In this document: one piece after another, positions 658 to 27,226 of the stretch
How the letters are laid out: each line of letters begins with the position of its first letter
How positions within the stretch are numbered: position 1 is the stretch's first letter
Position numbers and translations under genes: made by a program
Assembly: GCA_903927505.1 (NCBI GenBank)
Contig: CAIYNF010000168.1
Location: forward strand, 1-34,334
Source: an uncultured Bacteroidota bacterium
GTDB taxonomy: Bacteria; Bacteroidota; Bacteroidia; UKL13-3
Direction of reading: 5' to 3'
Length of the DNA: 34,334 nucleotides
Notes under the pieces: model-generated
Seen by the model: the letters and a program-made list of their open reading frames with translations, nothing else
Databases searched by the model: none
Told to the model about the DNA's origin: nothing

Positions 658-698
658 TTTTTTATTCCGGTTCGAACCAAATTCTAAAAATTCTTCTT

Positions 699-2342
699 AT
701 GAAAACCATTTTTTCACCTATATATTTTACGCTAATCATAACGCTCTTGTTTTATGGCTGTAAGCCCAAAATTCAAGGAGATTTAATTATTGTAAATACA
801 CATATACAATTGTGCGATTCTGCCTATACAAGCGCTGATGCTATGGTAATTGGTTCGGGAAAAATATTGGCAATTGGTTCGGCCAAAGACTTACTTTCCA
901 AATACCAAGTCGACTCTCAAATGAGTTTCAATGGAAAATTTATTTATCCTGGAATAATAGATGCACATTGCCATTTTTATGGTTTAGGTAGGTTCTTGCA
1001 AATGTTAGATTTATCACAAACAAAATCTTTTGATGAAGTTGTTGATGCCTGCCTGCATTATTACTCAAAGCAAACACATAATTATTTATTAGGTAGGGGT
1101 TGGGATCAAAACAAATGGCCGAACCTAGCTTACCCAACCAATAATGAAGCATTGAACAATGCTTTTCCTGATATTCCTGTTTTACTCAAACGTATTGATG
1201 GACACGCTGCTATAGCAAATGATTTTGCTTTGCGTTTGGCTGGTTTGCATTCCAAATCAAAAGTGGCTGGTGGTGAGTTATTATTGAGCAAAGGAAAATT
1301 AAGTGGTGTACTCATTGATAATGCTGTTGATTTGGTAGAAAGGGTAATGCCAAAACCTACTACCCAAGATAACATTAAAGCCTTGTTAGACGCTCAATCT
1401 ACTTGCTTACAATATGGAATAACTGCAGTTACAGATGCTGGTTTAGAAACAAATATTATTTATTTAATTGATTCCTTACAAAAAGTTGGTTTGTTAAAAA
1501 TGCGTATCAATGCTATGGTAAGTTTAACACCAGAAAATTTGGCATTTTGGCTCAAACGTGGACCATTAAAAACAGAACGCTTACAAGTAAATAGTTTTAA
1601 AATGTATGGCGATGGAGCGCTTGGATCTCGCGGGGCTTGCTTGCTCAAGCCTTATTCGGATCAGCCTAAACACAGCGGATTTTTGCTTACACCTGCCGCC
1701 GAAATGGAAAAGTATATTGAGCAAATTGCACGCTCACCTTTTCAATTGTGTACACATGCCATTGGCGATTCCACCAACCGTTTATTGCTTAAATTATATG
1801 GCCGGTATATTGGTCAATTGCCTAACAAACGTTGGCGCATTGAACATGCTCAAGTAGTAAATTCAGAGGACATTAATTTATTTGGTAAATATGGCATTGT
1901 TCCCTCCGTTCAAACAACACATGCCACCAGCGATATGTATTGGGCAATTAATAGATTAGGGCCACAACGTATTCAGGATGCATACAGCTATCAATCATTA
2001 TTGAAACAATTAGCTTGGCTGCCTTTGGGTACCGATTTTCCAGTAGAAGCGGTTTCTCCTTTCTTTACTTTTTATGCAGCTGTTAGCAGACGAGATGGAG
2101 CTGGTTTGCCTCAAAACGGATTTCAAATTGAAGAAGCTTTGAGCAGAAAACAAGCCTTAAGTGGTATTACCACATGGCCGGCAAAAGCGGCATTTCAAGA
2201 AAATGAAATGGGTTCACTTTTACCAGGTACTTTTGCAGATTTTGTAGTGCTAGATATAGATTTATTAGCAGCTGATATGAAGCAAATAAGGACTGCTAAA
2301 GCCTTACAAACTTTCATTGATGGTCTTCCAGTAAATAATTAA
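699..2342 (+). CDS. Amidohydrolase family (YtcJ-like) lipoprotein
   Basis: Lipobox-like LLFYGC; metal-binding DAHCHFYG; 'GRGWDQNKW', 'RIEHAQ' and 'LGTDFPVE' motifs typical of the YtcJ/amidohydrolase_3 family. Confidence 0.88.
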   Translation: MKTIFSPIYFTLIITLLFYGCKPKIQGDLIIVNTHIQLCDSAYTSADAMVIGSGKILAIGSAKDLLSKYQVDSQMSFNGKFIYPGIIDAHCHFYGLGRFLQMLDLSQTKSFDEVVDACLHYYSKQTHNYLLGRGWDQNKWPNLAYPTNNEALNNAFPDIPVLLKRIDGHAAIANDFALRLAGLHSKSKVAGGELLLSKGKLSGVLIDNAVDLVERVMPKPTTQDNIKALLDAQSTCLQYGITAVTDAGLETNIIYLIDSLQKVGLLKMRINAMVSLTPENLAFWLKRGPLKTERLQVNSFKMYGDGALGSRGACLLKPYSDQPKHSGFLLTPAAEMEKYIEQIARSPFQLCTHAIGDSTNRLLLKLYGRYIGQLPNKRWRIEHAQVVNSEDINLFGKYGIVPSVQTTHATSDMYWAINRLGPQRIQDAYSYQSLLKQLAWLPLGTDFPVEAVSPFFTFYAAVSRRDGAGLPQNGFQIEEALSRKQALSGITTWPAKAAFQENEMGSLLPGTFADFVVLDIDLLAADMKQIRTAKALQTFIDGLPVNN

Positions 2343-2396
2343 TGTATTGTATTTCAGCTAATTAAGACTTACAGATAAATAATGTTTGGGCAATTA

Positions 2397-2408
2397 ATGT
2401 ATATACAT
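2397..2408. promoter_or_regulatory. 12-bp perfect palindrome ATGTATATACAT upstream of marR; candidate autoregulatory operator
   Basis: Read directly; ends 17 nt before the marR start codon at 2426. Confidence 0.4.
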
Positions 2409-2425
2409 ATAAATTCGCCCTTATA

Positions 2426-2881
2426 ATGAAATTAGAAGAGGCAATCAAACAAACTAAATTTAATAATGCGCAGCACAAGGTGTTGTTAAATTTAATTTAT
2501 ACGGCTGGTTTGGTTCATGCAGAACAAACGCGTTTTTTTAAAGCCTACGATCTATCTCCACAACAGTTTAATGTTTTAAGAATATTAAGAGGGCAGCACC
2601 CTAATCCTGCAAGTGTGGGTTTGGTGCAAGAGCGCATGTTAGATCAAATGAGCAATGCCTCGCGTTTAATTGAAAAATTAAAGCAAAAGAAATTATTAAC
2701 ACGCAGAGAATGCAAAGAGGATAGAAGGCAAGTTGATATTGTTATAACAGATGATGGACTTAACCTATTAAAAGAAATTGATAAAGTGTTTATTGACTTT
2801 GAACACCGTTTGGCAAAATTATCCAACAGTGATGCAGAAACATTAAATAGTTTATTGGATCAAATCTCACACAGCATTTAA
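2426..2881 (+). CDS. MarR family transcriptional regulator
   Basis: wHTH composition: 'LSPQQFNVLRILRGQ', 'SNASRLIEKLKQKKLLTRRECKEDRRQVDIVITDDG' is a typical MarR wing. Confidence 0.93.
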   Translation: MKLEEAIKQTKFNNAQHKVLLNLIYTAGLVHAEQTRFFKAYDLSPQQFNVLRILRGQHPNPASVGLVQERMLDQMSNASRLIEKLKQKKLLTRRECKEDRRQVDIVITDDGLNLLKEIDKVFIDFEHRLAKLSNSDAETLNSLLDQISHSI

Positions 2882-2887
2882 AAAATT

Positions 2888-3502
2888 ATGAAAAAATATA
2901 TATATATGTTAGCTATTGCAGGTCTGGGTTTATCTGCAATTGCAAATCCACCAGCTAAGAAAGCTGATGCTCCTTACACGGTTGATGCTGCTGCTTCTAC
3001 CTTTAATTGGAAAGCTACCAAAGTTACGGGAGAGCATTCTGGTATTGCTAAAATTGCAAGTGGAATTGTTACCACTACTGGAACTAACTTAAAAGGTGGT
3101 GAAATTGTAATAGATATGTCAACTATTGATGCAACAGATTTAACAGGCGAATACCATGATAAATTAGTTGGTCACTTGAAAAGCGAAGATTTCTTCTCAA
3201 CTGCAAAATTTGTAACTGCAAGTATCAAAATTAAATCTGTAACTCCTATTAAAGGTGCAGCAGCTGGTAGCAACAATTACACTGTAGTTGCTGATTTAAC
3301 TATCAAAGGAATTACCAACGAAATTACTTTTCCTGCTATGGTAGTTATTACTGCTAAGCAAGTAATTTTTAAAGCAGATTTAAATGTTAACCGTACCAAA
3401 TATGATATCAAATACGGTTCAGCTAGCTTTTTTGAAGGTATTGGCGACAAAGCAATCTCTGATGACTTTAACGTAAAAGTAAGAGTGATTGCAAACAGAT
3501 AA
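2888..3502 (+). CDS. YceI family periplasmic/secreted protein
   Basis: Signal peptide; 'YTVDAAASTFNWKATKVTGEHSG', 'HLKSEDFFSTAKFVTA', 'DLTIKGITNEITFP' are YceI signatures. Starts 6 nt after the marR stop. Confidence 0.93.
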   Translation: MKKYIYMLAIAGLGLSAIANPPAKKADAPYTVDAAASTFNWKATKVTGEHSGIAKIASGIVTTTGTNLKGGEIVIDMSTIDATDLTGEYHDKLVGHLKSEDFFSTAKFVTASIKIKSVTPIKGAAAGSNNYTVVADLTIKGITNEITFPAMVVITAKQVIFKADLNVNRTKYDIKYGSASFFEGIGDKAISDDFNVKVRVIANR

Positions 3503-3522
3503 TAAATAAGGGTTTTGTTTAT

Positions 3523-3555
3523 AAGGGTCTGGTGCTTGCACCAGGCCCTTTTTTT
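3523..3555 (+). terminator. Rho-independent terminator after yceI
   Basis: AAGGGTCTGGTGC-TT-GCACCAGGCCCTT followed by a T run; 13-bp stem with one G-U pair. Confidence 0.85.
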
Positions 3556-5221
3556 ATGGCCTTTTTCTTATTTCGCTCGCAAAATAAGCACACTTGGTAT
3601 CTATGCGCATGTGGTAGGAGCCGCTTGCCTTTAAGCTATTTTCTGTGGTGCTGGGATAAATCATTTTGGCACTACCAAATACATCTGTAATATATACGGG
3701 CATTGCAAAATCAGCCGCTACATTTTCCCATTTGTAATATAAAACCTGGTCGCTTGAATTGGCTTTAATATCTAAGTAATAAACCAATTTAGGAACTTGT
3801 CTCGAATTCAAATATTGTTTAAAAAACCAATGGTAATCTTGTCCTGTCTTTTGGTTTACCATTTGAATAAAATCTTCGGTACAAACAGTTTGGTATTTAT
3901 AGGTTTGGTAAAATGATTTTAGGATATCAAAAAACACAACATCTTTATGAATACAGGTTCTTAAACTGTGCATCATTAATGCGCCTTTCATATAGGGGTC
4001 ACTGTCTTTGTAATTCCAATAATTAACATCTTTTGGTCCTTCCATGTTCTGCTTGTTTTTTACAAGCATTCCATAAAAATTTAAATAGTTCAAATAGGTT
4101 TCATGGCCCATGCTCTCTTCCATAAACAATGCTTCGCTATAGGTTGCCATTCCTTCGTGGATCCAAATGTCTGCATAATCTTTTACAGAAATGGCATTGC
4201 CCCACCATTCATGTGCACTCTCATGTAAGATAATATAATCTATGCCGTAGGCGTTGTTTTTGTAAGCATTTCCATATGCTATGGCAGTTTGGTGCTCCAT
4301 GCCTTCAAAGGGACTTTCAACCAATTTAAATTCATCGCGCCAAAATGGATATTCGCCAAAAGTGTTTTCATACACCTGAATAATTTTTCTGGTTTGCTGA
4401 AAATGTTCCCTGGCTTTTTCTAAATTATAATCCAATACATAATAGTGCAAACGCTTATTGTCTATTTTGGCATAACCAGAACTGAAATGTTCAAAATGGC
4501 CTATATAAAAAGTGGCGTTATAGGTATTAATAGGATAACTAACTTTATAGGTAAACGATTTTTTAGTTTCAGTAGAATCCTCCTTTATTAATTTACCATT
4601 GCTCACACATGTGAGTGCTTTGGGAACAATAAATGTCATTTGCATGCTATCGGGTTCGGCACTTAAATGGTCTTTTAATGGCCACCAAATATTGGCACCA
4701 ACTTTCTCGCAAGCCACGCCAATCCATGGTCTTCCTTTCTTGTCTTTTTTCCAAACAAAACCACCTTCCCATGGCGGACGTTTTGCTACAATTGGTTTTC
4801 CACCGTATTTTATCTCTAAAATAATTTGTTTACCACTGTCAATTTGCGATTTAAAATCAAGCCATAATCCAGTAAATTTTCTGCGGTAATTTATTTCTTC
4901 GCCATTGTACTGAATGCTGCGCACCTGCATATTTGGATGTAGGTTCAGCATCAATGTTTTAAAACTTTTAGTAGCCAACAAATGTATTTTTGCTACACCT
5001 TCAATTGATTTTTTATGAATATTAAAATCAATACTGAGTTCATAATAATAGGGTTTGTAGCAATCTCTATCACCACTTAAATAACCAATTAATGAATCTT
5101 CCACTGTAAACTTTGGGAGTTTACTTGGCTTTTTTGGTGTTTCACGTGCTATATTTAATCCCAGCAGCGAGCAACCCACAAAACTGATGGCAATGCCAAT
5201 AAAAAGGAAGAAGTTTTTCAT
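3554..5221 (-). CDS. M1 family (gluzincin) metallopeptidase lipoprotein
   Basis: HESAHEWWG zinc motif with downstream 'WIHEGMATYSEAL'; lipobox-like 'ISFVGCSLLG'. Confidence 0.92.
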   Translation of the reverse strand: MKNFFLFIGIAISFVGCSLLGLNIARETPKKPSKLPKFTVEDSLIGYLSGDRDCYKPYYYELSIDFNIHKKSIEGVAKIHLLATKSFKTLMLNLHPNMQVRSIQYNGEEINYRRKFTGLWLDFKSQIDSGKQIILEIKYGGKPIVAKRPPWEGGFVWKKDKKGRPWIGVACEKVGANIWWPLKDHLSAEPDSMQMTFIVPKALTCVSNGKLIKEDSTETKKSFTYKVSYPINTYNATFYIGHFEHFSSGYAKIDNKRLHYYVLDYNLEKAREHFQQTRKIIQVYENTFGEYPFWRDEFKLVESPFEGMEHQTAIAYGNAYKNNAYGIDYIILHESAHEWWGNAISVKDYADIWIHEGMATYSEALFMEESMGHETYLNYLNFYGMLVKNKQNMEGPKDVNYWNYKDSDPYMKGALMMHSLRTCIHKDVVFFDILKSFYQTYKYQTVCTEDFIQMVNQKTGQDYHWFFKQYLNSRQVPKLVYYLDIKANSSDQVLYYKWENVAADFAMPVYITDVFGSAKMIYPSTTENSLKASGSYHMRIDTKCAYFASEIRKRP

Positions 5222-5224
5222 TAA

Positions 5225-6889
5225 TTATTTTTTATCCTTCAATCGTTCTTTGATATCCAACCTGTGTTTGCGTGCGGTATCAATGGCAATGTCGTAACCT
5301 GCATCTGCATGCCTTATTACGCCCATGGCAGGATCATTGTGCAATACGCGTTTTAACCTGCGGGCTGCATCATCTGTTCCATCTGCTAAAATTACCATAC
5401 CAGCGTGAATACTATAACCCATACCTACGCCACCACCATGGTGCACACTTACCCAACTTGCGCCACCAGCCGTATTAATTAAAGCATTTAAAATTGGCCA
5501 ATCTGCAACAGCATCACTGCCATCTTTCATGGCTTCTGTTTCTCTATTTGGAGAAGCTACAGAACCTGTATCTAAATGGTCGCGGCCAATTACAATTGGT
5601 CCTTTTACTTTTCCGGTTCGAACCAACTCATTAAATGCCAAAGCTGCTTTCTCTCTATCACCTTGTCCAATCCAACAAATACGTGCAGGCAAACCTTGGA
5701 AAGCGATACGCTCGCGTGCCATATCTAACCAACGGTGTAAGGAGGTATTTTCAGGAAACAAATCTTTCATTACTTGGTCGGTAACATAAATATCATTTGG
5801 ATCGCCGCTTAAAGCAACCCAACGGAAAGGACCTTTACCTTCACAAAACAAAGGACGAATATAAGCAGGCACAAAGCCCGGGAAATTAAACGCATTGGCA
5901 ACACCGCGTTGGTCTTTTGCTTGTCCGCGTAAATTGTTGCCATAATCAAATGTTATGGCACCACGTGCTTGCAATTCCAACATCAATTTTACATGATGTG
6001 CCATGGTATCTAAACTCAAACGGGTATACTTATCCGGATCCGTTTTGCGCATTCTGTCCGAAACTTCTTCTGCAATATCTTCTGGGTAATAGCCATTCAA
6101 AGGATCATGGGCAGAGGTTTGATCTGTTAATAAATCTGGCGTGATATTTCTTTCAAGTAGGCGCTCCAATAAATCAATCACATTACAATTAACGCCAATA
6201 GAAAGACTTCTGCCTTCTGCTTTTGCTTTTAATGCCATATCAATTGCTTGGTCTATATCACGACTCATTACATCTAAGTAACGCGTTTCTAAACGTTTTT
6301 TGATACGCCATTCAACCATTTCTGCAGCCAAACAAACACCATCGCACATGGTAACTGCCAAAGGTTGGGCGCCACCCATTCCACCTAAACCAGCAGTAAC
6401 AGTTAGTGTGCCTTTTAAGCTACCCCCAAAATGCTGACGAGCGGCTTCTGCAAAGGTTTCGTAAGTACCTTGCACTATTCCTTGCGAACCAATATAAATC
6501 CAACTTCCGGCAGTCATTTGTCCGTACATCATGAGGCCTTTTTTGTCTAACTCATGAAAGGTTTCCCAATTGGCCCATTTAGGAACCAACATACTGTTTG
6601 AAATGATAACACGAGGCGCATCTTTATGGGTTGGCAAAATACCAACGGGTTTGCCGCTTTGTATTAAGAGTGTTTCATCTTCTTCTAAATCGCGCAATGC
6701 TTTTTCAATTAATTCAAAGCTTTCCCAGTTACGCGCTGCTTTGCCAATACCGCCATAAACTATTAAATCTTCTGGACGTTCTGCTACATCTGGATCGAGG
6801 TTATTATGCAACATGCGCAGGGCTGCTTCTTGTACCCAACCTTTACATGTTAATTCATTGCCTTTAGCGGCGTGTATTACTCTGCTCAT
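5225..6889 (-). CDS. hutU: Urocanate hydratase (urocanase)
   Basis: Whole-length similarity by eye: '[13 protein letters not shown]', '[21 protein letters not shown]', '[14 protein letters not shown]', '[14 protein letters not shown]', '[18 protein letters not shown]'. Confidence 0.97.
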
Positions 6890-7059
6890 TGTTCTATAAT
6901 TTGAGGCGAAAATAGGGCTATTTTTCTTGTTCGCAAAAAGCTTTAAAACTTAGAATACGCCTAATTTATAGGCATTTAGCATATTTGAATACCAATTTGT
7001 AGGAATGTCATATTTTTTTATGAAAAGAAAATCTCATTTTCGTGCTTGAGATTTATACT

Positions 7060-7881
7060 ATGAATTACATGAAATTTCCTTTGTTGCAAGTGGTTTTTTT
7101 AGGCAGTTTTCAATTGTTAAGTTTATTTGGTTCGGCCCAAGACAAAAAGCCTGGCGCTTTTTACCTTACTTGGGGATATAACCGCGAGGCCTACTCAAAA
7201 AGCACTTTGCATTTGTATAACCATACAACAGATAATTATGATTTTAAAATGATGAATGCCAAGGCGCATGATAAAAATAATTTTGAGCATATTGGTCCAT
7301 TGAGCGAACTAACCATTCCACAATACAATTTACATATTGGGTATTTGTTTAATGACAAGCGCAATTTAGGTGTAGAATTAAGTTGGGACCATTTAAAATA
7401 TGTGGTAACAGATAACCAAGTAATGCGTGTTCAAGGCGATATTCGGGGTAGAAGCATTGATAAGGATACTTTGGTTGACCCAGATTTTGTGCATATTCAA
7501 CATACCAATGGAAACAATTATTTGATGTTAAATATTGTAAAGAAAACACCCCTTTGGCATCATCAGAACATGGAATTAAGTTGGCAAAATAAAGTAGGTG
7601 CTGGGGTATTGTATTCGTATACCATTTCTACTGTTTTGGGTAACCATGATGATGGCCATTTTAAACCACAAGGTTTTGTTTTGGGCTTGAACACCAGTTT
7701 GCGTTACGATATGTGTCGTTATTTCTTTTTAGAAGCAACAACCCAAGGGGCTTATGCAGATTACCGTTCAACAGAATTAGGTGCAGATCACCAAGGAAGA
7801 TTGGAACACCACTTTTATTCAATAGCTTTTGCTTTGCAATTTGGCTTTACTATTCCAACGCATAACACCAAGGGAATTTAA
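7060..7881 (+). CDS. Conserved hypothetical outer-membrane/exported beta-rich protein
   Basis: ORF 7042..7881; signal peptide starts more plausibly at MNYMKFPLLQVVFLGSFQLLSLFGSAQ (7060). No recognised domain. Confidence 0.6.
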   Translation: MNYMKFPLLQVVFLGSFQLLSLFGSAQDKKPGAFYLTWGYNREAYSKSTLHLYNHTTDNYDFKMMNAKAHDKNNFEHIGPLSELTIPQYNLHIGYLFNDKRNLGVELSWDHLKYVVTDNQVMRVQGDIRGRSIDKDTLVDPDFVHIQHTNGNNYLMLNIVKKTPLWHHQNMELSWQNKVGAGVLYSYTISTVLGNHDDGHFKPQGFVLGLNTSLRYDMCRYFFLEATTQGAYADYRSTELGADHQGRLEHHFYSIAFALQFGFTIPTHNTKGI

Positions 7882-7903
7882 TTTTTAAACTATCTTTGTC
7901 AAC

Positions 7904-8293: not shown

Positions 8294-8331
8294 TGTGTTT
8301 TCCTTTTTGTTTATTCTTTATTTAAAATCCA

Positions 8332-10674
8332 TTGAAAAAAATATTTTCCTTGGCTATTTCTACGGGAATTTTTATTTTATTGTTTTGCTGTTTTTCGTTT
8401 CGAACCAATGCCCAAGCAAATCAAATTATTGAAATTCAAATTGTAGATAGCCTTAACTTAGAACCTTTATCTGGCGCTACTGTTAGCATTAGTAAGCACA
8501 GGCATTTCCATATCAGTGATGCCCAAGGAAAGGTAAAAATTGATTCTTTGCCTTTGGGCGAAATTACCTTGCATGTTTCCTATATTGGTTACCACCACCA
8601 AGATGTAAAAATTCATTTGCCAAGCACAAAAATATTACGCGTTTTTTTGTGTTCGGAAATAGGGCATTTGCATGAAACCATCATTGCGGGTGCAACAATT
8701 GGCAACAATTTTTCTGCTCGTTCAAAAACAATCATGAGCGCTGAGGAAATTCAAAAACACCAAGGGCAAAATATTTCCGATTTATTAAAAAATATCAATG
8801 GACTTACATTGATGAATGCTGCTGGAGGTATTGCCAAACCGGTATTGCGCGGCATGCATGGGCAGCGATTAATGATTTTAAATGGAAATGCTGCCATGGA
8901 AGGGCAACAATGGGGCGACGACCATGGACCAGAAATAGACCCCTTTCAAGCAAATGGTATTGAAGTAATAAAAGGTGCTGCAAGTTTAGAATATGGTCCT
9001 GCAGCAATGGGTGGTGTTATTCATATTTTACCAGCTGCTTATTTAAAACAAGAGGGTATTGGCGCTAAAATTAATTTACAAGCATTGAGCAATAACCGCC
9101 AAGGTGCCTTTTCTTTTCAGGTGGAGGGTAGAAAAGGGAAAGAAAAATTTATGGCTTGGCGTGTGCAAGGCAGTATGCGAAAAGCAGGTGATGCGCATGC
9201 TCCCAGCTATCAAATAAGTAATACGGGCTTTACAGAAAACAACCAATCTGCCATGCTTGTTTTTGGCGGTAAAAAATGGACATGGGAAAGTAATTTGAGC
9301 AGGTTTGCAACGGTACAAGGCATTTTTATTGGTTCTCATTTAGGAAATATAGATGATTTGAAAAAGGCCCTTCAAGCAAGTAAACCACTCATTATTCTTC
9401 CATTTTCTTATACTATAGGCAAACCCTACCAAACGGTGGAGCATGTTTTATTCTCAACTAAGTTTAATTACCAACTAGCTAAAAACAAAAAACTGAGTTT
9501 GCTTTATGTGCAACAAGACAATAGGCGACAAGAGTTTGATGCAGATAGAATTTATAACCAAGCCTTGCAGGGGAAACCTGCTACTGACTTGGAGATTCAG
9601 AGCTTTACAGGCGAGCAAAGTTACGAGCAAAAGTTTCATGAGCATTGGATTTTTAAATTGGGTGCAGCAGAATTATTGCAAAACAATTCGGTTCAAGGTA
9701 CGCAGTTTATTATTCCTACTTTTCAATCTATTACTTTAGGTGCATTTGCCTTACTCAAAAAAGAATGGTTAGATGCAAATTTGTCGCTAGGATTGCGCTA
9801 CGATAAACGTTGGCTAGAGGTGCCTAATTATAAACGCTTTCAAAATTCTTACCACTACAATACGCAAATGGGAGGCGCTTCTGCAGGCTTAACCTATAAC
9901 AAACGACTTCAAAAACAACTAAGTGCAAGCATCAGTTTGCAAAGCAGTTGGCGCCCACCCGCAGTGAATGAATTGTACAGTTATGGTTTGCATTATGGTG
10001 TGGCAAGTTTTGAAATTGGTTCAGACAAACTTGTTCCAGAGCGCGCCTTTTTATTGGACATTAATCTGCGCAAAGCCTATCAAAATATAAGTATTGAGGC
10101 AAGTGCCTACCTGCAACAATTCAATCATTTTATTTACCGCAGTCCTATGGCCGAACCCATATTAACCATACGTGGCGCTTTTCCTGCTTTTCAATTTATG
10201 CAACACAATGCGCGGCTAATGGGATTGGAAGTAAGTTTTGTTTATCGGCAGAAAAGGGCCTGGCAATGGGAGAGTAAATTCAATTATTTACATGCGCAAA
10301 ATATAGATTTAAACCAGCCATTAATTTTTATGCCAGCCAATAGAATGGAGCATACTTTGGGCTATGTTTTTAGTGAAAACAAATTATTCAAATTGCCGTT
10401 TATTGAAATGCAAAGTATTTGGGTGGCTAAGCAAAATAGGTATGTAAGTGGTGCAGATTTTACCATTCCACCTGCTGCCTATGTATTGTTAAATATCAAT
10501 GCAGGTGGGTCTTTTCAGCCTTTTAAAAATGGCCAAGTCTGGTTATTTAATTTGAGTGTTCAAAATGTATTGAACCAAAATTACCGCGATTACATGAGTA
10601 AGTTTAGGTACTTTACCAATGATCCTGGAATCAATTTTATTTTTAGTTTACAAATTCCTATTTCAAAAAATTAA
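8332..10674 (+). CDS. TonB-dependent receptor with N-terminal carboxypeptidase-like regulatory domain; putative metal (ZnuD-like) receptor
   Basis: 'GATVSISKHRHFHISDAQGKVKIDSLPLGEITLHVSYIGY' (CarboxypepD_reg-like), plug 'ISDLLKNINGLTLMNAAGGIAKPVLRGMHGQRLMILNG', then beta-barrel to a terminal aromatic-rich strand. TTG start. Confidence 0.9.
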   Translation: MKKIFSLAISTGIFILLFCCFSFRTNAQANQIIEIQIVDSLNLEPLSGATVSISKHRHFHISDAQGKVKIDSLPLGEITLHVSYIGYHHQDVKIHLPSTKILRVFLCSEIGHLHETIIAGATIGNNFSARSKTIMSAEEIQKHQGQNISDLLKNINGLTLMNAAGGIAKPVLRGMHGQRLMILNGNAAMEGQQWGDDHGPEIDPFQANGIEVIKGAASLEYGPAAMGGVIHILPAAYLKQEGIGAKINLQALSNNRQGAFSFQVEGRKGKEKFMAWRVQGSMRKAGDAHAPSYQISNTGFTENNQSAMLVFGGKKWTWESNLSRFATVQGIFIGSHLGNIDDLKKALQASKPLIILPFSYTIGKPYQTVEHVLFSTKFNYQLAKNKKLSLLYVQQDNRRQEFDADRIYNQALQGKPATDLEIQSFTGEQSYEQKFHEHWIFKLGAAELLQNNSVQGTQFIIPTFQSITLGAFALLKKEWLDANLSLGLRYDKRWLEVPNYKRFQNSYHYNTQMGGASAGLTYNKRLQKQLSASISLQSSWRPPAVNELYSYGLHYGVASFEIGSDKLVPERAFLLDINLRKAYQNISIEASAYLQQFNHFIYRSPMAEPILTIRGAFPAFQFMQHNARLMGLEVSFVYRQKRAWQWESKFNYLHAQNIDLNQPLIFMPANRMEHTLGYVFSENKLFKLPFIEMQSIWVAKQNRYVSGADFTIPPAAYVLLNINAGGSFQPFKNGQVWLFNLSVQNVLNQNYRDYMSKFRYFTNDPGINFIFSLQIPISKN

Positions 10675-10675
10675 C

Positions 10676-11236: not shown

Positions 11237-11285
11237 TTTTGGATGAAATAATAATTTATCTAATTTTACCGCTTCTACCCTAAGT

Positions 11286-12455: not shown

Positions 12456-14383
12456 AAGTAGTAATTATTGGAGGAGGCTTAGCAGGATTTTCATTGGGTG
12501 TATTGTTACAATCTAGGGGCATACCCTTTGTAGTTTGTGAACGTGATCCAATTGGGTTCACAAGAGGCCTGGCATTTTTGGTACATGAAGATGCAATAGC
12601 CTTGGTGGAAGAGTTTTTGCCAAAATTTCCAAAACCTAAATTCCCTGGAAATATTGTAAATGATTTGGTATTACAATACAGCAGTGGGAAAGAAATTGCG
12701 CACAAGAAATTGGGTTCATGGCATGGAATGAAACGCAGCGATTTGGTTGATTTTATAAAAAATTATATTGATAGTAATTTCATTAAATACGAGCGTGTTT
12801 TTTCTCATTTTTTATATGAAGGTGAAAAAGTAATTGCGGCAGTTTTTAAAAATGGAGACATAGAATATGGTGATGTTTTTGTAGGTGCAGATGGCGCAAA
12901 ATCAGCTGTTAGGCACGCGTTATTTGGAGAAACACATTATACACCTGTTGAAGTAAAAGAGATTGTGGGTGTTTTTAAGAGTAAAGAATCGTCCGCAAAT
13001 ACGCCTCATTTATTTAGAAAGTATATTTGTAAAAATAGGTCAATGGCTTTTGGTATTATTCCAATAGCTTCTCATGAATGGGTCTGGTTTATGCAATATC
13101 ATACTGTATTGCAAGGCAATTATTCAGATTCACCAGAAGATATTAAAGCCTTTGTTTTGGAATCGCTGAAAGATTTTCCTGAGGAATTGAATACCCTAAT
13201 TTCACAGCACGATTTTACCAAGTCGTTTGTATGGCATGGAACAGATTTTGACATGTTGCCAAGTTTTCATAAAAACAATGTAGTGCTCATTGGCGACGCT
13301 GCCCATCTTGCTTTACCATTTACCAGCGCAGGCACCACAAATGCTTTTTTAGATGCTATTTCAATTGCAAAATATTTGGTTCCAGATGCTAATTTAGAGG
13401 AAGTTTTTTTAGCCTATTACCAATTGCGTGCACCCATTGTAAACAAGCATTTAGAATTTGGAAGAAATAGCAAAGTAAATTTCTTATCGCGCAAAATGGA
13501 TGATGAAAATTTGCATATTCCATTAATAAAAGATACAGGTTCTACAAGAGTGACAGCCGCATTATCTCAGAAAATAAAACTTATTTATTTTACCGATCCA
13601 ATTTGTTCTACCTGTTGGATTATTCAACCACAATTTAGAAAATTGATGTTGGAATATGGTGCTAATTTAGACTTTGAATACCGCATGGGTGGCCTCCTCC
13701 CTTCATGGGAAGAATACAATAAAGGTAAAATAAAGAATGCAAAAGATGCTGCAGCCTATTGGTCAGAATTGTCCTTAGAAAAGCGCATGCCCATTTTTTC
13801 TGATGTATGGGAAGTGAATCCAATTAACTCTTCCTTTCCACCTTCTTTGGCCATGAAGGCAGCGCAATTGCAAGACAAGAATAAGGCAGCATTGTTCTTA
13901 AGAAGAATTAGTGAAATGGTGTTTTTTGAACGCGTAAATATTTCTGAACAAGCGCGCTTTTTGGAAGCTGCCGAACAATGTGATTTAAATGTGCCTTTGC
14001 TACTTGAACAAATGAATAAGGAAGCGCAAACTGCATTTGAATTAGATTTACAATTTGCCAAAGAGAAAGACATCCAAGTGCTGCCTACCTTTATTTTTTA
14101 TATAGATGACGAAACCAAAATTCGTTTGAAATCGTATCAAAATTATGAAGACCTAGAAAGGGCATTAACCACCCTTGTGCCAGGTGTGGTTAAAAATATT
14201 TACGCCAAAGAGCCGCGTGCCTTGTTTGCAACTTTCCCTAGCTTAACAACCTATGAAGTGGTTTACTTGACAGATTGGCCTGAAGAAAAAGTATTAGCTG
14301 CCTTAAATGAATTGCGTTCTTATAATATCATTAAAGTGCAAGTTCATAAAGGGCAAATGCTTTGGACAAGAAATACGATTTAA
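12452..14383 (+). CDS. FAD-dependent monooxygenase (N-term) fused to DsbA/FrnE/YjbH-like thioredoxin-fold domain with CSTC motif, plus C-terminal winged-helix-like tail
   Basis: N-term 'VVIIGGGLAGFSLGVLLQSRG' and 'VVLIGDAAHLALPFTSAGTTNAFLDA'; from about aa 370 'IKLIYFTDPICSTCWIIQPQFRKLMLEYGANLDFEYRMGGLLPSW' and 'SFPPSLAMKAAQLQDKNKAALFLRRI...VLPTFIFY'. ATG overlaps the upstream stop (ATGA). Confidence 0.85.
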   Translation: MKVVIIGGGLAGFSLGVLLQSRGIPFVVCERDPIGFTRGLAFLVHEDAIALVEEFLPKFPKPKFPGNIVNDLVLQYSSGKEIAHKKLGSWHGMKRSDLVDFIKNYIDSNFIKYERVFSHFLYEGEKVIAAVFKNGDIEYGDVFVGADGAKSAVRHALFGETHYTPVEVKEIVGVFKSKESSANTPHLFRKYICKNRSMAFGIIPIASHEWVWFMQYHTVLQGNYSDSPEDIKAFVLESLKDFPEELNTLISQHDFTKSFVWHGTDFDMLPSFHKNNVVLIGDAAHLALPFTSAGTTNAFLDAISIAKYLVPDANLEEVFLAYYQLRAPIVNKHLEFGRNSKVNFLSRKMDDENLHIPLIKDTGSTRVTAALSQKIKLIYFTDPICSTCWIIQPQFRKLMLEYGANLDFEYRMGGLLPSWEEYNKGKIKNAKDAAAYWSELSLEKRMPIFSDVWEVNPINSSFPPSLAMKAAQLQDKNKAALFLRRISEMVFFERVNISEQARFLEAAEQCDLNVPLLLEQMNKEAQTAFELDLQFAKEKDIQVLPTFIFYIDDETKIRLKSYQNYEDLERALTTLVPGVVKNIYAKEPRALFATFPSLTTYEVVYLTDWPEEKVLAALNELRSYNIIKVQVHKGQMLWTRNTI

Positions 14384-15033
14384 TGTATTTTGTGCGCTAA
14401 AATTAAATTATTACTTCCGCAAACGCGCGCTATTACTTTAACTTCCAAGCCTTGTGATTTAAATCCTGCTTCAATTAATAAATGCTCGTTATTAGGCATA
14501 GTTTTACGCATGGTATTATAAATAATCTGGCCGTTTGCATTTAATCCTTCTCCTAATTTTTTAAGAAAATCTGTTTGCGTAAATGCTGCAGGTACTTTGT
14601 CTTTAATAAATAAATCAACAATTATTAAATCAAATTTGCGCTGTCTTTTTTCCATATAAAGCAAGGCATCTGCTTCTATAATGCTTGTATTTTCAAAAGT
14701 ATCTAAATGAAATGTTGTTCGTGCAATTTCAATAATCAGTGGGTCTATTTCCACCAATTCAATAAATGCATTTGATTTAAATTTTTCTCTAATAGTAGCA
14801 ACTATAGAACCAGCGCCCATGCCTAATACCAAAACATTCTTTTGGTTCGAACCGAAGCCAATTTCTTTTAGACCTCTATGAAGAATTTCCTGCAATGTAC
14901 CATAAGAATAATTGCTGCTTTCTGTATCTAAAACCAATTTTCCATTTTGAAGATTTACTTCTAACATTCCATGTATTTTACTTGGAATTCTTTTTATAGA
15001 AATTGGAAACAAATAACTGAGCAATTTTTTCAT
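14380..15033 (-). CDS. Spermidine synthase-like SAM-dependent methyltransferase-fold protein
   Basis: 'NVLVLGMGAGSIVATIREKF', 'IELVEIDPLIIEIARTTFHLD', 'KFDLIIVDLFIKDKVPAAFTQTDFLKKL'. Confidence 0.75.
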   Translation of the reverse strand: MKKLLSYLFPISIKRIPSKIHGMLEVNLQNGKLVLDTESSNYSYGTLQEILHRGLKEIGFGSNQKNVLVLGMGAGSIVATIREKFKSNAFIELVEIDPLIIEIARTTFHLDTFENTSIIEADALLYMEKRQRKFDLIIVDLFIKDKVPAAFTQTDFLKKLGEGLNANGQIIYNTMRKTMPNNEHLLIEAGFKSQGLEVKVIARVCGSNNLILAHKIH

Positions 15034-16546: not shown

Positions 16547-16574
16547 TTTTAATTTTTCAACTAATGAATCGAAA

Positions 16575-17567
16575 TTAATTCAAATGCTGGTAACACCTGC
16601 CACTTGGATTGGTAGTCATTCTTTTGCACCTGTTTCCAGCTTTAGTTATTCCTATACATTGCGTGGCTATATTTTTCTTTGGTCCATTGCCACCATGCGT
16701 TTGGTGATGCATTGCAGTCCAATTCCAGCAAGGAATACAAACATTTGCTTCTAATTCATTTTCGTCTTTGTCTGGCAGCAATGGAAAGAAATTGAGTCCT
16801 GTAACTTCTTCCACTTTATCAATGCTTACGGCAAAGTCTTGCAAGTTTTGGTTCGAACCTTCATTGGGTAAAATAAAACCAATTGCTTTTACATTGGGTA
16901 GTCTGTAATCTAAAATAACTTTATAAAAATATTTTGGTACTGCCACCCTGTGTATCCCTATACGTGGCAAATCTGAAGTTAAAATGGGTCCTGTTACTAT
17001 GTATATATCTTCATTTTCAACAGCCCATGTTCGAACCAACTCTTCTAAATGTTTCCAAATGCCGCGGTTAAAACTTGCCAATTGCGGACTCATATTGCTA
17101 TAGTAAAAAGATTCTGCTACCGCTGTTGCCGACCATTCCATATCTGCTGCAGGAGCCAAATGTCCACGGTCGTAGCCAGAATGCGTATAATCTTCTGTGG
17201 TAGAGGTTCCCGTTTTTACTTTTGGATCGGGATAAAATCTATTGCTGCGTTCAAAAACTTTATGTGTTTCAGTGGCATCCATTTCATAGGCTACCCAAGA
17301 TGCTTGTTCGTATGCCTCGTTATAGAGCAAAGAGTACCCAACATGCGTAACAATATTTTCTTTGTGCGGGGTAAATGGTATTTCTAAATAGGGGATAGCA
17401 ATTGTATTTCCCAGTTGTTCTATGCTGTTAATCTTTTCGCCAGGCTTGTTTTGAAGCGTTTTAAGGGAGGTTTTATTGCTTGCTCCAACAAACTCCCATG
17501 CGCATAATGAAACAACGCTCAGCCCTATTAAAAGAAATTTTATTTTTCGCATGGGAATTGTTTGCAA
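16575..17567 (-). CDS. DNA/RNA non-specific (NUC) endonuclease, exported, with C-terminal Cys/His tail
   Basis: 'YTHSGYDRGHLAPAADMEWS' (DRGH active site), 'YYSNMSPQLASFNRGIWKHLEELVR'; N-terminal hydrophobic signal; C-term 'QCIGITKAGNRCKRMTTNPSGRCYQHLN'. Confidence 0.9.
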   Translation of the reverse strand: MQTIPMRKIKFLLIGLSVVSLCAWEFVGASNKTSLKTLQNKPGEKINSIEQLGNTIAIPYLEIPFTPHKENIVTHVGYSLLYNEAYEQASWVAYEMDATETHKVFERSNRFYPDPKVKTGTSTTEDYTHSGYDRGHLAPAADMEWSATAVAESFYYSNMSPQLASFNRGIWKHLEELVRTWAVENEDIYIVTGPILTSDLPRIGIHRVAVPKYFYKVILDYRLPNVKAIGFILPNEGSNQNLQDFAVSIDKVEEVTGLNFFPLLPDKDENELEANVCIPCWNWTAMHHQTHGGNGPKKNIATQCIGITKAGNRCKRMTTNPSGRCYQHLN

Positions 17568-17582
17568 ATTAATTTAGCCAGC

Positions 17583-18281: not shown

Positions 18282-18292
18282 ATCGTTTTTTA

Positions 18293-19223: not shown

Positions 19224-19226
19224 ATT

Positions 19227-22200
19227 TTATCTTTTTTGCGCCCGCACAAATTTATTTCGGTCCGAAATATTGGCTTGCCTAATTTTATAATCTTCTTTTT
19301 CTTTTGAAACTTTATCAATATTCGCTTTTATAATTTCATTAAATAAAATGTCGGAACTAATTACTGCCATTACACCTTTTTGGTATTTAAAGAAATACCA
19401 AGAGCCTTGCGGCTGTTGAAGATAGATTACCAAATCATCGCCGCCTCTCTTTTTGGTGATTTCAATTTTCCCCTTCACGCGTCGTTCAATTAAATTTTTA
19501 TCAATGCTCCTAAGTCCCAATTCACCTGTACTTCCAAAGGAACGTGTGGCAGTATTCCAAACCAATGTAACATCTGTAAAAAAGAAAGTTTTAAGCAAAT
19601 CTTCCATATTCTTAGTGCTCAATTCTTCTTCCATAATGTCACCCAATTTCTTGAAGGTTTTTTCTTCCACCAATTCTGGAATACTAATTTTAATAACCCT
19701 GCTATCATAAAAATCTGCCGAAGCTGCAATTGATTGTTCTGTTAAAGAGTCTACCATCATTTTAATTGCAGCAGATGGCAAAATCATGTCAACCAGCATG
19801 GTTAGTTTTAGGCCAAAAGTGGTATCTGCTAAATTAAACGTTGCATAGCCTGCACTGTTAATATTAAAACCTTGTGTATTGAATCCAAAATTAAACTTCC
19901 CTTCGCCATACACACTTTTCTTTTGTTCGCTCATGGCCATAAAATTGCCACGTTTATCATCTCTAAACACTTTGCCATAACTGCCTAACCTAAATTCATC
20001 AAATTTTTCATTGTAGGTAAAAGTCCCTTCACATTTTAGCAATTCTTGGTCGCTTGTATTGCGTTTTCTTGAAAACAAAGCCGGATAAACGTGCGTAGAA
20101 TCACTGCTAACAAAGAATCCATTGGTTAAAGCTTGTCTGTTTAAATTGGTTAAGGGTGGCGTTAAATTTATATAAACAGAATCTGGATTTATGGTTGCAG
20201 CGGCTCTGAACCAATCTGTTTTAGGGATAAACTGTTTGTGCATGCCCTTGAAAAATCCACTGTATTCTAAGTTTTTATTGAACGAATGTAAAATGGTATT
20301 TCCCCTAAATCCAATTTTTGGTCCTACCATAAAATTAATGGTATCAGGAATTAAAGTTTTTCCTTCTAAGAATTTTTTCTCTACTACATAAATTTGGTCT
20401 AAATAAAATTTCTGTGGTTTCTTATTGTGGTCAAAGTAGGTATAGGTACCTGCGCCAATGCAATCGGTGCGGCCATTAATTTTAATTCCTACCCTTTCTA
20501 TATCATGGTATTGGTTTATGGTATCTGATTTAATTTTTGCATTTACCAACATATCCATTTCTGCATTTTGTCTTAAAACAGCTTTGCCACTATCTGGAAA
20601 TACCTTGCTATCTGCAATAATAATAAAAGGAATTTTACCCACTTTCATCACATAATCGTTGAGTGTTAAAAATGCTGAACCCGCTGAATATTTAAGCTGC
20701 TCTTGACTGGGTTTATTGCTGAGCAAATAACTGCCGGCTTCCATATTTGCTGGCTTCACAGGACCAGTAAATTCTAATGTTTTAGGAATCATATCCCATT
20801 TCAGTTTTTCAAATGAGCCTGAATAATTGTTTAACATAAAAGTATTGTTCAGGCCTGGAAAGTCTTTGTAAGTAAACTCTGCATATTTTAATTCCAGGTT
20901 TACATAAGCTTTCACTTTACCTGTAGCAAAGGCAACTTTTGTAGAGTCTTTTGGATCCATTTGTTTAAAAACAGCATCATCAGAAAGGATCTCTACAGGC
21001 TTTAATTCAAAAATATTGGCTTCTAGTTTTCCTCCTTCAATATCCATATTACCGCGGGCCTTCATGGCCTTTGGCGTTAAAATAATAGTTCCATATAATT
21101 TGGCACCATCATAGGCTATCTTCATTGGTTCGCCTTTATTGGTAATAAACATGGTATCTTGATAGGGTATCCAATGTGTAAAAACATTTGGAGATTTTAT
21201 CACAGTAGGAAACAAAGAAGTTCTATCGTTTTCAAAAATATGACTATTAGAATTCATTGAATCCAACATAAATTCAAAACGATGGGAAGATGTGCGTGAG
21301 GCCAAGTAAGTAAGCGTTCCATCGCCAACCAAACCATCATTACTCAAACGCAAATCCATTTTAGCGTTCCCTCTATTATCGTATAAATTATATTTGGTGC
21401 TGTCTAATGGAATATAAAATCCCAAACTTTTATCTGGCTGCAAATAAATTGCCTGTCGCATTTCTGGTAATATGCCTCCCGAAACAAAATTACCTGCCAA
21501 GGCAAGTGTATATAAATTTAAATCGGCCAAACTATCCAAGGTAAATGGATCTACATCAAAATAGAAACGGCTTCTATCGTAAGACCCCTTCATTGTTGTT
21601 GGATAATCATAAAAAACTTTTGAGCCAACCTCAGAGGTAAATATTGGATATTTAGGATAACGTTTTCTTCCAGATTTGTTATAAGGATAATCTATTTCAA
21701 GCGTTCCATAAATATTTTGAATCACACTCTTTACATGTCTCATCATGCCTACAGAATCATCTGGATACAAGAATTTCAAGGAATCAACATTGTTCAACCT
21801 AATTTTAAAACCATTGTAGTCAAAGGCGAAATTATTTCCATAAAAATCGGCCATACCAGCTCTTAATTTTCCGCTAAAATCCATGCTGCGGTTTTTCTTC
21901 AATGTTACTATTTGGTCTTTAGGAATAATGTAAACATTTTGCGAATCGCTAAAGTAAAATTTAGGCACACCTTGTACCACCAAATCATAATTAATTAAAC
22001 TGATATGGGCATTTGGAAGTGTACTAATGATAGAGTTAAATGAAATAGCATCGTAATCGGTTCGGCCATTGTGCGCATTTACATAATCTATTAATTTACG
22101 CTTCACATAAACCATATTTTTAGGACCATCAAAATTCACATAACCTTTGTCGTTTAAGTCAATCATTTGTATGCGTATATCACTGATATTGCTTCTAAAT

Positions 22201-23603: not shown

Positions 23604-23609
23604 ATTTTA

Positions 23610-23642
23610 CCCTTCATTCAAGTAGTATACTTGAATGAAGGG
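23610..23642. repeat. Perfect inverted repeat CCCTTCATTCAAGTA-GTA-TACTTGAATGAAGGG directly upstream of the 1458-aa gene
   Basis: 15-bp arms, 3-nt loop; 6 nt from the start codon (minus strand, ATG at 23603..23601). An imperfect extension flanks it (TATTTT / AAAATA). Confidence 0.9.
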
Positions 23643-23691
23643 GCAAAATACAAACGAATTATGACATAGCAGAATTTTTCGACTTTAGGTT

Positions 23692-24456: not shown

Positions 24457-24475
24457 GGTATATAATTTTGCTGCC

Positions 24476-25687
24476 TTAGGATGCATTGTTTTCCCAAGTG
24501 CGGTATTTCTTACTTAATTCAAAAACATGTTTTAAAATAGCCTTGTCTGTTTCGGTAAATGGAACATTCCTTCTCCTATAAACGGCCTCGGCGGTCTTGT
24601 AAAATTTGCTGAGCACAAAGGTGTCAAACCCTTGCGCACCACCCCAGCTAAAACTTGGTAAAAAGTTTCTTGGGAAGCCCGAACCAAAAATATTGGCGCC
24701 CACACCAACTACGGTTCCTGTGTTAAACATGGTATTGATGCCACATTTGGCATGGTCTGCCATCATTAAGCCACAAAAAGTTAAACCTGTCTTTTCAAAT
24801 TTTTCTGTGCCGTAATTCCATAATTTAACCTCATCATAGGTATTTTTAAGATTAGAATTATTGGTATCTGCACCCATATTTACCCATTCTCCAATTACGG
24901 CATTGCCAACAAAACCATCATGGCCTTTATTGCTGTATGCATAAAAAATTACGTTGTTTACTTCGCCACCTACTTTGCAATGCGGCCCAACAGTGGTAGG
25001 TCCGTATATTTTGGCATCCATTTTTAGGCCCGCATCTTCACACAAGGCAAAGGGCCCGCGTACTTTGCAGCCTTCCATTACTTCGGCATTTTTGCCAATA
25101 TAAATAGCACCTGTGCTGGCATTTAAAATGGAGAATTGCACTTTGGCGCCTTCTTCTATAAAAATTCTTTCAGGATTTACATATTGGTTGCCTGCTGGAA
25201 TGGCTTGTGATTCCCTGCCTTTGGTAAGGAAATCAAAATCTTGCTCTATGGCCTCCCCATTTTTTGAAAATAAATCGTAGGTATAATTTATTTGGAGCAA
25301 ATTATTGGCCTTGGTTTCAGTGTTTTGGTATTGAGTGATGTCTTCTGTAAAAGAATCCAACTGGGCTGCATCTAAATAGACAGCAAGCAGTTCATTTCCA
25401 CAAACCAGTGCTTGTCCATTTTGTTTGAGTTGTAATATTTCTGAAACTAAAAGCTCATTGGGGCAAATACTGCCATTTATTAAAATATTGGCTGTTCCGC
25501 TATTTAAGGGGAATTTCTCTTGCAAATAGGCTTGGGTTTTATAGCCAAATTCGCCCTCTTTCAAATATTTTCGCCATTTTTCATCAATGGTCATTATGCC
25601 AATACGGAGGTTAGCAACCGGCCTGGTATAGGTAAATGGCAATAAATTGATACGCGTAATTTCGGGGTCGAAAAAAAGATAATGCAT
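24476..25687 (-). CDS. GlmU-like sugar nucleotidyltransferase with left-handed beta-helix
   Basis: N-term 'YLFFDPEITRINLLPFTYTRPVANLRIGIMTIDEKW'; hexapeptide-like C-terminal half 'GAIYIGKNAEVMEGCKVRGPFALCEDAGLKMDAKIYGPTTVGPHCKVGGEV'. Confidence 0.82.
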   Translation of the reverse strand: MHYLFFDPEITRINLLPFTYTRPVANLRIGIMTIDEKWRKYLKEGEFGYKTQAYLQEKFPLNSGTANILINGSICPNELLVSEILQLKQNGQALVCGNELLAVYLDAAQLDSFTEDITQYQNTETKANNLLQINYTYDLFSKNGEAIEQDFDFLTKGRESQAIPAGNQYVNPERIFIEEGAKVQFSILNASTGAIYIGKNAEVMEGCKVRGPFALCEDAGLKMDAKIYGPTTVGPHCKVGGEVNNVIFYAYSNKGHDGFVGNAVIGEWVNMGADTNNSNLKNTYDEVKLWNYGTEKFEKTGLTFCGLMMADHAKCGINTMFNTGTVVGVGANIFGSGFPRNFLPSFSWGGAQGFDTFVLSKFYKTAEAVYRRRNVPFTETDKAILKHVFELSKKYRTWENNAS

Positions 25688-25734
25688 GAAGTAGGGATTA
25701 CTTTGAGCGCACTAAATTACGAGGGATGGGTATA

Positions 25735-25770
25735 AAAAAAAAGCCCCCGCGGTTTAGCGGAGGCTTTTTG
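25735..25770 (-). terminator. Rho-independent terminator downstream of rpmE2
   Basis: AAAAAGCCCCCGC-GGTTTA-GCGGAGGCTTTTT hairpin; on the minus strand it is followed by a long T run. Confidence 0.85.
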
Positions 25771-25776
25771 GTATAA

Positions 25777-26031
25777 TTAATCAGCTTTTTTCTGATAACG
25801 TCTTTTAAACTTGTCAATACGACCAGCTGTATCCACGAACATAGATTGTCCTGTGAAAAACGGGTGGGATTTGTAGGATATATCCAATTTAAATAATGGA
25901 TAATCAGTACCATCTTCCCATTTGATGGTCTCTTTGGTGTCTACTGTGCTCTGACAGATAAACATGTGGTCGTTAGACATGTCTTTGAAAACCACTTTTC
26001 TATAGCTTTTTGGGTGGATACCTTCTTTCAT
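25777..26031 (-). CDS. rpmE2: 50S ribosomal protein L31 type B
   Basis: '[30 protein letters not shown]...[19 protein letters not shown]...[13 protein letters not shown]'. Confidence 0.96.
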
Positions 26032-26226
26032 CTTCTTATCAAAATTTAGGAGGGCAAAAATATGCAATTTTATTCATAAACAAAATTTATGAACATTTTT
26101 TTTTCTTTTGTCCTGTTTCCTCACAAATATAAGCACTTTAACCACATATCTTTTATTTTGTCTGCGAAACTTATATTTGTAGCTAAATAATTTGGGTGGA
26201 ACCAAAGCTTTTTAATTAAAACGCAC

Positions 26227-26724
26227 ATGAAAACACAAATTTTAGATCACCAGCAAGTTCAAAAGATCTTAAAAAGAATGGCTTATCAGATTTATGAGAA
26301 GAATTTCGACCAAAAAGAATTGGTCTTTGCCGCCATCAAAGGACAAGGAATGGAAGTGGCGAAATTGGTTCAAAGCGCCCTGCAAGAAATTTCTAAAATT
26401 AAAATAAGCCTCATTGAACTTGAAATAAATAAAAAAGCACCTGTGTTTAATGGCGCCACTTTAACGCCAGCTAACAGCAAGCTTCAAAATAAAACCCTAG
26501 TGCTATTTGATGATGTTTTAAATACTGGCCGTACTCTGGTATATGGCATGCAAGCCTTCTTACAAGAAAATGTTGCTGCCGTGCAAATTGCAGTGCTGGT
26601 AGATAGAAACCACAAGAGTTACCCAGTGGCGGCAGATTATATTGGCCTATCTCTTCAAACTACTTTGCAAGAACATGTGTCGGTAAATATGAAATCAGGA
26701 AAAATTAGCGTTAGTCTTTTATAA
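26227..26724 (+). CDS. Phosphoribosyltransferase family protein (PyrR-like)
   Basis: PRPP-binding motif 'LVLFDDVLNTGRTLVYGMQAF'; 'VAAIKGQGMEVAKLVQ'. Confidence 0.85.
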   Translation: MKTQILDHQQVQKILKRMAYQIYEKNFDQKELVFAAIKGQGMEVAKLVQSALQEISKIKISLIELEINKKAPVFNGATLTPANSKLQNKTLVLFDDVLNTGRTLVYGMQAFLQENVAAVQIAVLVDRNHKSYPVAADYIGLSLQTTLQEHVSVNMKSGKISVSLL

Positions 26725-26747
26725 AGAATTTTGTTGCAGAAATTGCA

Positions 26748-26787
26748 AAAAAAATCCCCCGCTCGGTAAACGAACGGGGGATTTTTT
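26748..26787. terminator. Bidirectional terminator between convergent phosphoribosyltransferase and HU genes
   Basis: AAAAAATCCCCCG...CGGGGGATTTTTT, symmetric A/T flanks, between converging genes. Confidence 0.88.
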
Positions 26788-26803
26788 ATTTGCTTGAATC
26801 AAA

Positions 26804-27076
26804 TTATTTGATTTTAGCTTGTAAGCCAGAACCAGCTTTGAATTTAACAACCTTTTTTGCTGGGATGCTAATTTCTTTACCAGTTTGTGGGTTACGACCT
26901 TTACGTGCAGCACGTTTAGTAACTGAGAAAGTACCGAAACCTACTAGGATTACTTTGTCGCCTTTTTTCAAAGCAGATTGAGTTGAACTCATGAATGCAT
27001 CTAATGCAGCTTGAGCTTGAACTTTAGTAACTCCGGCAGCTTTTGCCATTGAGTCGATTAAATCTTGTTTGTTCAT
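26804..27076 (-). CDS. HU family DNA-binding protein
   Basis: 'MNKQDLIDSMAKAAGVTKVQAQAALDAFM...KGDKVILVGFGTFSVTKRAARKGRNPQTGKEISIPAKKVVKFKAG'. Confidence 0.97.
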   Translation of the reverse strand: MNKQDLIDSMAKAAGVTKVQAQAALDAFMSSTQSALKKGDKVILVGFGTFSVTKRAARKGRNPQTGKEISIPAKKVVKFKAGSGLQAKIK

Positions 27077-27226
27077 TTTAAATAGATAATTATTGGTTTT
27101 GCATAACAAACTTAATAAAGAGAATTGAAATGTCAAGCACTTTCAAGGGTTTTGAGAAAAAAAAATCATTTTTTTATTTCACACCTTTTCAACATTTCTA
27201 GGCGCTAGGGCTTGGTTCGAACCAAT

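Follow-up and report, generated by a model that had tools for sequence, protein, structure and literature searches.

The word GGTTCGAACC, of which five exact copies lie in a 34,334-nt stretch of contig CAIYNF010000168.1 (assembly GCA_903927505.1, uncultured Bacteroidota, UKL13-3), hereafter called the window, marks copies of a 14-bp DNA dyad, TYGG-TTYRAA-CCRA, which is found throughout the genus and is maintained at the DNA level. Some factor in the cells probably reads this word. The leading candidates for the mechanism are an uptake-like drive, tentatively favoured here at rather less than an even chance, and chromosome organisation, its main rival.

The genome holding the window is a metagenome-assembled genome (MAG) of 2,821,997 bases (2.82 Mb), 99.67 % complete. 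Whole-genome counts were used for copy numbers in this genome, its congeners and a sample of the phylum, and detailed site statistics were derived from 804 kb of the genome, including the window, and from samples of relatives. GGTTCGAACC was found 300 times in the whole genome, compared with 7 for the reversed-pattern control, and 100 times in the 804-kb sample, where 0.77 copies were expected from an order-4 Markov model with the sites masked in training (approximately 130-fold). It is the most frequent palindromic 10-mer of the window, with exact copies starting at 669, 5615, 14844, 16850 and 27214, all of them as located in a first-pass annotation of this DNA, and one-mismatch copies starting at 8397, 17028 and 17904. 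These eight matches at no more than one mismatch compare with 0.37 in dinucleotide shuffles, none of which reached eight, so the over-representation proposed in that annotation is confirmed. TTCGAA was said to be near expectation with half of its occurrences inside the 10-mer, and this also holds: it occurs ten times in the window, five of them within the 10-mer, and outside the sites of the 804-kb sample 130 occurrences remained, compared with 139 expected from the Markov model. Since TTCGAA outside the sites is at expectation, the flanking GG/CC matter, as had been suggested.

The 10-bp palindrome originally described is real, but the unit is longer. The flanks contribute T at position −1 (84 %) and C or T at position 0, giving TYGGTTCGAACCRA, and strict palindromy is found only in some species of the genus, the consensus of the TG dialect described below being asymmetric (about TTCGGTTTGAACCAAA). 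Conservation around the sites stops at about 14–16 bp. When spacings were scanned in the genome holding the window, only the inverted pair TYGG-N6-CCRA was in excess (182, compared with 56–102 at other spacings), and the corresponding counts were 105 compared with 13–38 in the relative G008 and 51 compared with 5–21 in G013. The half-site TTGGTTCG, the top over-represented octamer by z-score, was found 165 times vs 51 with the sites masked, and GGTTCG was more weakly enriched (373 vs 246, sites masked), in agreement with the half-site enrichment noted earlier by eye. One-mismatch copies were in graded excess, position 3 being the most tolerant (43 vs 1.6), followed by T to C at position 4, and the outermost G was nearly obligatory. 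The dyad and its strict one-turn spacing, which would suit a dimer contacting two major grooves one helical turn apart, point to a dimeric sequence-specific DNA-binding factor. Such a factor would contact TYGG in each of two adjacent major grooves, and DNA shape may contribute to its reading of the central TTYRAA.

The motif is maintained at the DNA level, against codon usage. Gly-Ser-Asn followed by Pro, His, Gln, Arg or Leu was spelled GGT TCG AAC C in 32 of 46 cases, although codon usage predicts 0.32, and Val-Arg-Thr was spelled ..G GTT CGA ACC in 30 of 61 cases (0.11 predicted). Phe-Glu-Pro was written in the motif's codons in 13 of 41 cases, with 0.55 expected. TCG and CGA are rare codons in this genome, and the tripeptides concerned (GSN, VRT and FEP) are themselves in excess. 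All three intragenic sites of the window follow the pattern, with GSN at 14844 and 16850 and VRT in urocanase at 5615. Codon usage as the sole cause of the over-representation is thereby excluded.

The sites are also conserved between species. Compared with G011 (89.5 % nucleotide identity), five of six aligned copies were identical (41 % for 10-mers of equal GC content), and the non-identical copies differed by substitution. Over all pairs at least 85 % identical, 28 of 32 sites were identical (44 % for the comparison), and over more distant pairs 78 of 266 (4 %), the pairs being non-independent and sites present in both species being counted twice; 57 of the distant comparisons had a gap inside the site, where gain or loss by indel is possible. 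Flank identity at the sites was 0.705, compared with 0.742 at matched positions (difference 0.036, standard error 0.008), corresponding to divergences of 29.5 and 25.8 %. Because the sites are conserved while their flanks diverge more, the word itself persists as the sequence around it changes. The first-pass annotation had argued against a mobile element and a transfer RNA T-arm. This is upheld: conservation stops at 14–16 bp, copies in the closest pair differ by substitutions, and about three quarters of the copies are within open reading frames (ORFs). A repetitive extragenic palindromic (REP) or other mobile palindromic repeat was rejected on the same grounds, together with the lack of clustering. 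An origin from viruses was likewise rejected, as most of the IMG/VR stretches that match the 16-mers have a single copy, none has more than four, and arrays are absent.

In whole genomes GGTT(CG/TG/CA)AACC, in one or both spellings, is enriched in all 19 sampled members of the genus. Of 18 congeners, 15 are enriched for GGTTCGAACC itself, which is at background elsewhere. G015, G017 and G018 seemed to be exceptions, and analysis of them revealed gapped inverted repeats and the TG/CA dialect: many relatives spell the motif GGTTTGAACC or its complement GGTTCAAACC. The genome holding the window has 300 CG and 60 TG/CA forms and G013 has 92 and 1,318, respectively. Copies per genome range from about 90 to 1,410 in the genus, at densities of 25 to 344 per Mb (approximately 14-fold between congeners), so that the dyad recurs on average once per 3 to 40 kb across the 19 members. 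The CG and TG/CA forms were at background in the other sampled genera of the family and class, and in 395 genomes drawn from the phylum, scanned for the CG form, this form was at background (at most 14 copies). The scaffold TYGG-N6-CCRA exceeded its reversed control 2.5 to 5.6 times in the genus (1.3 times in G015), compared with a ratio of about 0.5 to 2.2 for 13 genera elsewhere in the family. No alternative iterated palindrome was seen in low-copy congeners or in one other genus. A window protein has public relatives in MAGs recorded as Bacteroidetes bacterium, Bacteroidia bacterium or Chitinophaga pinensis, some of them from ponds, and these record titles suggest a freshwater habitat for the group.

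The sites are dispersed, without clusters, in permissive positions. With ORFs called crudely (longest first, without a trained gene finder), 24 of 100 exact copies were intergenic although only 7 % of the bases lie outside called ORFs, and 42 of 43 position-3 variants were genic. In the genome holding the window the sites were spaced a little more evenly than at random (variance/mean 0.67 in 10-kb tiles, a value as low in 1.5 % of simulations); evenness was not significant in G008 or G011, and the small sample of G013 was if anything clumped. Intergenic copies favour convergent (tail-to-tail) gene pairs. The first 25 nt past a stop codon hold 16 of 27 intergenic copies here and 10 of 19 in G008, with 13–14 % expected, but in G013 and G011 they hold only 1 of 10 and 3 of 11, respectively, and in several near-stop copies the G of TAG doubles as the first G of the motif. 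The only triple cluster of the sample (L090, G000:C117, positions 2179, 2998 and 3596) is at the parB operon; two of its copies are kept in G011 and G016, one in G003 and none in the TG-dialect genomes G008 and G010.

Placement bears on two readings which invoke transcription. In one, the sites would serve as operators for a global regulator of transcription, of CRP/FNR, LacI or XRE type. The FNR operator is TTGA-N6-TCAA and 434-type operators have a matching geometry, which the motif fits, and its graded degeneracy is like that of a binding site; with about three quarters of the copies inside genes, and the intergenic ones at convergent gene ends rather than divergent promoters, this has only a slim chance of being correct. 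For an RNA element at gene ends, or a transcription terminator there, the chance is slimmer still. The sites behind stop codons speak for it, as does the TG form being in the sense of the gene in 9 of 10 near-stop copies of G008 (samples L166–L185), and the CG forms have the potential for a 7-bp hairpin (−5 to −7 kcal/mol). The dominant form of the TG dialect, however, barely folds (−1.6 kcal/mol, z +0.5), most copies are intragenic in either orientation (32 sense and 42 antisense inside genes of G008), and the sense strand runs on into A, with no T-tract. The sense bias near stops in G008 may reflect a transcription-linked C-to-T change or a real polarity. Polar signals of the Chi/KOPS type would be expected to show a strong strand bias along the replichore; on the 658-kb contig of G008, 48 TG and 31 CA forms were counted by strand, which is no clear bias, the CG form being symmetric.

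The likeness to HIP1 (GCGATCGC) that was drawn originally is borne out descriptively: the motif is a genome-wide iterated palindrome, genic and intergenic. Like HIP1 and its alternatives, it is palindromic, dispersed, mostly intragenic, clade-specific and replaced in some relatives (PMC4390886). HIP1 is linked to cognate methylases (PMC4390886), and Elhai's proposal for cyanobacteria, a site tied to mismatch repair and a DNA methyltransferase, would account for the dense, mainly intragenic pattern; deamination of methylated C could moreover change CG to TG. No methylase, however, tracks the motif in the three Pfam families to which the search was directed, other methylase families being outside it. 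C5-methylase had no match in 11 of 19 genus members, including the genome holding the window, N6_N4_Mtase was above the cut-off in 6 of 19 and absent from this genome, and D12 methylases were above the cut-off in 7 of 19. Further, the motif extends over 14 bp at a lower density than HIP1, its core is not enriched without the outer bases, and any base is tolerated at position 3, unlike a methylase site. The methylase target put forward in the first-pass annotation is therefore improbable, and the resemblance to HIP1 does not go beyond the pattern.

A dimeric helix-turn-helix protein acting in nucleoid occlusion, condensation or segregation, in line with the nucleoid or segregation protein suggested in the first-pass annotation, is a more serious contender, although on balance unlikely. 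The sites of Noc, SlmA and MatP are 12–16-bp dyads scattered on the chromosome, and the 14-bp dyad with one-turn spacing is of similar length. The dispersed, slightly even sites of the genome holding the window, their positional conservation across species and their mostly intragenic location, which argues against promoter regulation, are also consistent with chromosome organisation. Noc, SlmA and MatP sites, however, number tens of copies in defined domains. Contig stretches of 658 kb in G008 and 810 kb in G003, short of closed genomes, showed no depleted or dense domain. The large density differences and dialect shifts between congeners and the asymmetry of the TG dialect also speak against this explanation. 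ParB was found in one copy in almost every genome, in and outside the genus, with no Noc-like paralogue. No parS-like sequence at three or fewer mismatches was found in the 3.3-kb parB loci, but ParB is canonical-looking, with a helix-turn-helix region like that of a motif-free relative (compared by eye); a Noc-like paralogue or an altered parS was rejected as the basis of the motif. An 18-nt palindrome of Caldithrix abyssi, to which no function was assigned, is likewise uniformly scattered and found between convergent genes, but it has 38 exact copies which are essentially extragenic (PMC5317091), whereas the motif is mostly intragenic, genus-wide and has dialects.

The genomic distribution is best read as most like that of DNA-uptake sequences, to which placement and species dialects are closer than to HIP1. 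The DNA-uptake sequences (DUS) of Neisseriaceae and uptake signal sequences (USS) of Pasteurellaceae are also clade-specific iterated words with species dialects and many one-mismatch copies (PMC3630211, PMC2397512, PMC1852404), in permissive sites with more divergent flanks and a preference for gene ends and tail-to-tail regions. The roughly 15 % reported for flank divergence at DUS (PMC2397512) is similar in size to that seen here, and neisserial uptake sequences favour tail-to-tail regions and gene ends (PMC1852404). The uptake-like drive is further supported by the maintenance at the DNA level, the conservation in place between species, the strict spacing of TYGG-N6-CCRA and the genus-wide CG and TG/CA dialects, with none of the CG form above background elsewhere in the phylum sample, and the approximately 14-fold variation in density is easier to explain by a drive than by an essential structural site. 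With less certainty than the dimeric factor, the word would spread and persist because motif-bearing DNA is favoured in a transfer or recombination step, as a self-marker that owes its enrichment to uptake bias and gene conversion in the manner of DUS and USS. The route might be pilus-independent competence as in other Bacteroidota. As Riemerella illustrates, competence in Bacteroidota does not always require type IV pili and can proceed through ComEC, DprA, ComF and uncharacterised proteins (PMC8459023), so that an uptake-like mechanism in the genus is possible but unproven. The full proposal, a genus with its own DNA self-recognition in which a dimeric reader, a dyad with dialects and pilus-independent biased uptake or recombination rewrite codons and some amino acids, is more doubtful than the drive as such.

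Several observations weigh against uptake. The motif is a strictly spaced dyad, whereas known uptake sequences have no dyad symmetry and are recognised by a minor pilin of type IV pili. DUS and USS use type IV pili, but no PilB/PilT-type ATPase was detected in the genus (PF00437 at background in 19 of 19 members), and a type IV pilus route was rejected. ComEC was present in all 37 genomes tested, in keeping with such a competence route, but equally in motif-free genera, and does not discriminate; no recogniser emerged from the searches for methylases (three families), ParB/Noc, type IV pilus ATPase and ComEC. Permissive placement is equally expected of any weakly selected DNA site. The motif also differs from DUS and USS in that copies are fewer, about 90 to 1,410 compared with 2,245 to 5,918 per genome for DUS dialects (PMC3630211), and there are no inverted-pair terminators.

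Only a few clades are known to carry iterated recognition words (HIP1, DUS/USS), and none was described in Bacteroidota in the literature searched; a full-text search for GGTTCGAACC returned nothing on a bacterial genome-wide motif, as judged by titles and the starts of abstracts. The motif points to a putative DNA-binding factor whose influence extends to codon choice and to the sequence of proteins. As an uptake signal, the motif would belong to a pilus-independent self-recognition system; were it related to the nucleoid, it would imply a chromosome-organising protein, a kind of factor of which little is known in this phylum. The 19 sampled species, with at least two dialects, form a natural experiment on whether such a word spreads by drive or by selection.

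The sites of the window, to which no strand is assigned, lie in varied contexts. The copy at 669..678 begins 11 nt past the TAA of a lipid A acyltransferase-like gene (34–657), and that at 27214..27223 (TTGGTTCGAACCAA) is 3 nt past the stop of a shikimate kinase gene (27227–27751, minus strand), upstream of an HU gene. Three copies are within minus-strand genes: 5615..5624 in urocanase hutU (5225–6889; ..G GTT CGA ACC, Val-Arg-Thr), 14844..14853 in a spermidine-synthase/methyltransferase-like gene (14380–15033) and 16850..16859 in a DNA/RNA non-specific endonuclease gene (16575–17567), both of the latter reading GGT TCG AAC C (Gly-Ser-Asn-Gln). The sequence at 16850..16859 is the same in the close relative L052. 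The one-mismatch copy GTTTCGAACC at 8397..8406, of a type in excess genome-wide, is at the signal-peptide end of a TonB-dependent receptor gene. That at 17028..17037 (TGTTCGAACC), in the endonuclease gene and shared with L052, is a weak candidate, as its mismatch type is barely in excess (5 vs 1.4 expected).

A related word, GGTTCGGCC, is found in the window at 876–884, 7129–7137 and 22059–22067. It is over-represented in the genome sample (37 vs 4.4, sites masked), Gly-Ser-Ala being spelled GGT TCG GCC 25 times compared with 0.8 expected, and is probably a one-sided variant of the site. GGTCGCGACC, considered as a second palindrome, belongs to a longer repeat that is unrelated to the motif. 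Another palindromic repeat, longer than the motif and of the type TGTAGGGACAGGTCGCGACCTGTCCCTACA, was found at L056 (G000:C33, positions 12266 and 12302) and L062 (G000:C39, positions 4867, 4937, 9855, 9902 and 10200), paired 36–70 bp apart near exopolysaccharide genes; its GTAG/CTAC ends recall REP elements. GCCAGAAGCC and CGAGAAGCGA, with their complements, are over-represented in the same genome sample and are perhaps a repeat family. At G000:C170 752–2564, two adjoining genes encode D12-class adenine methylases; neither was detected in the close relatives G011 and G016, and the pair looks like a species-specific restriction-modification locus.

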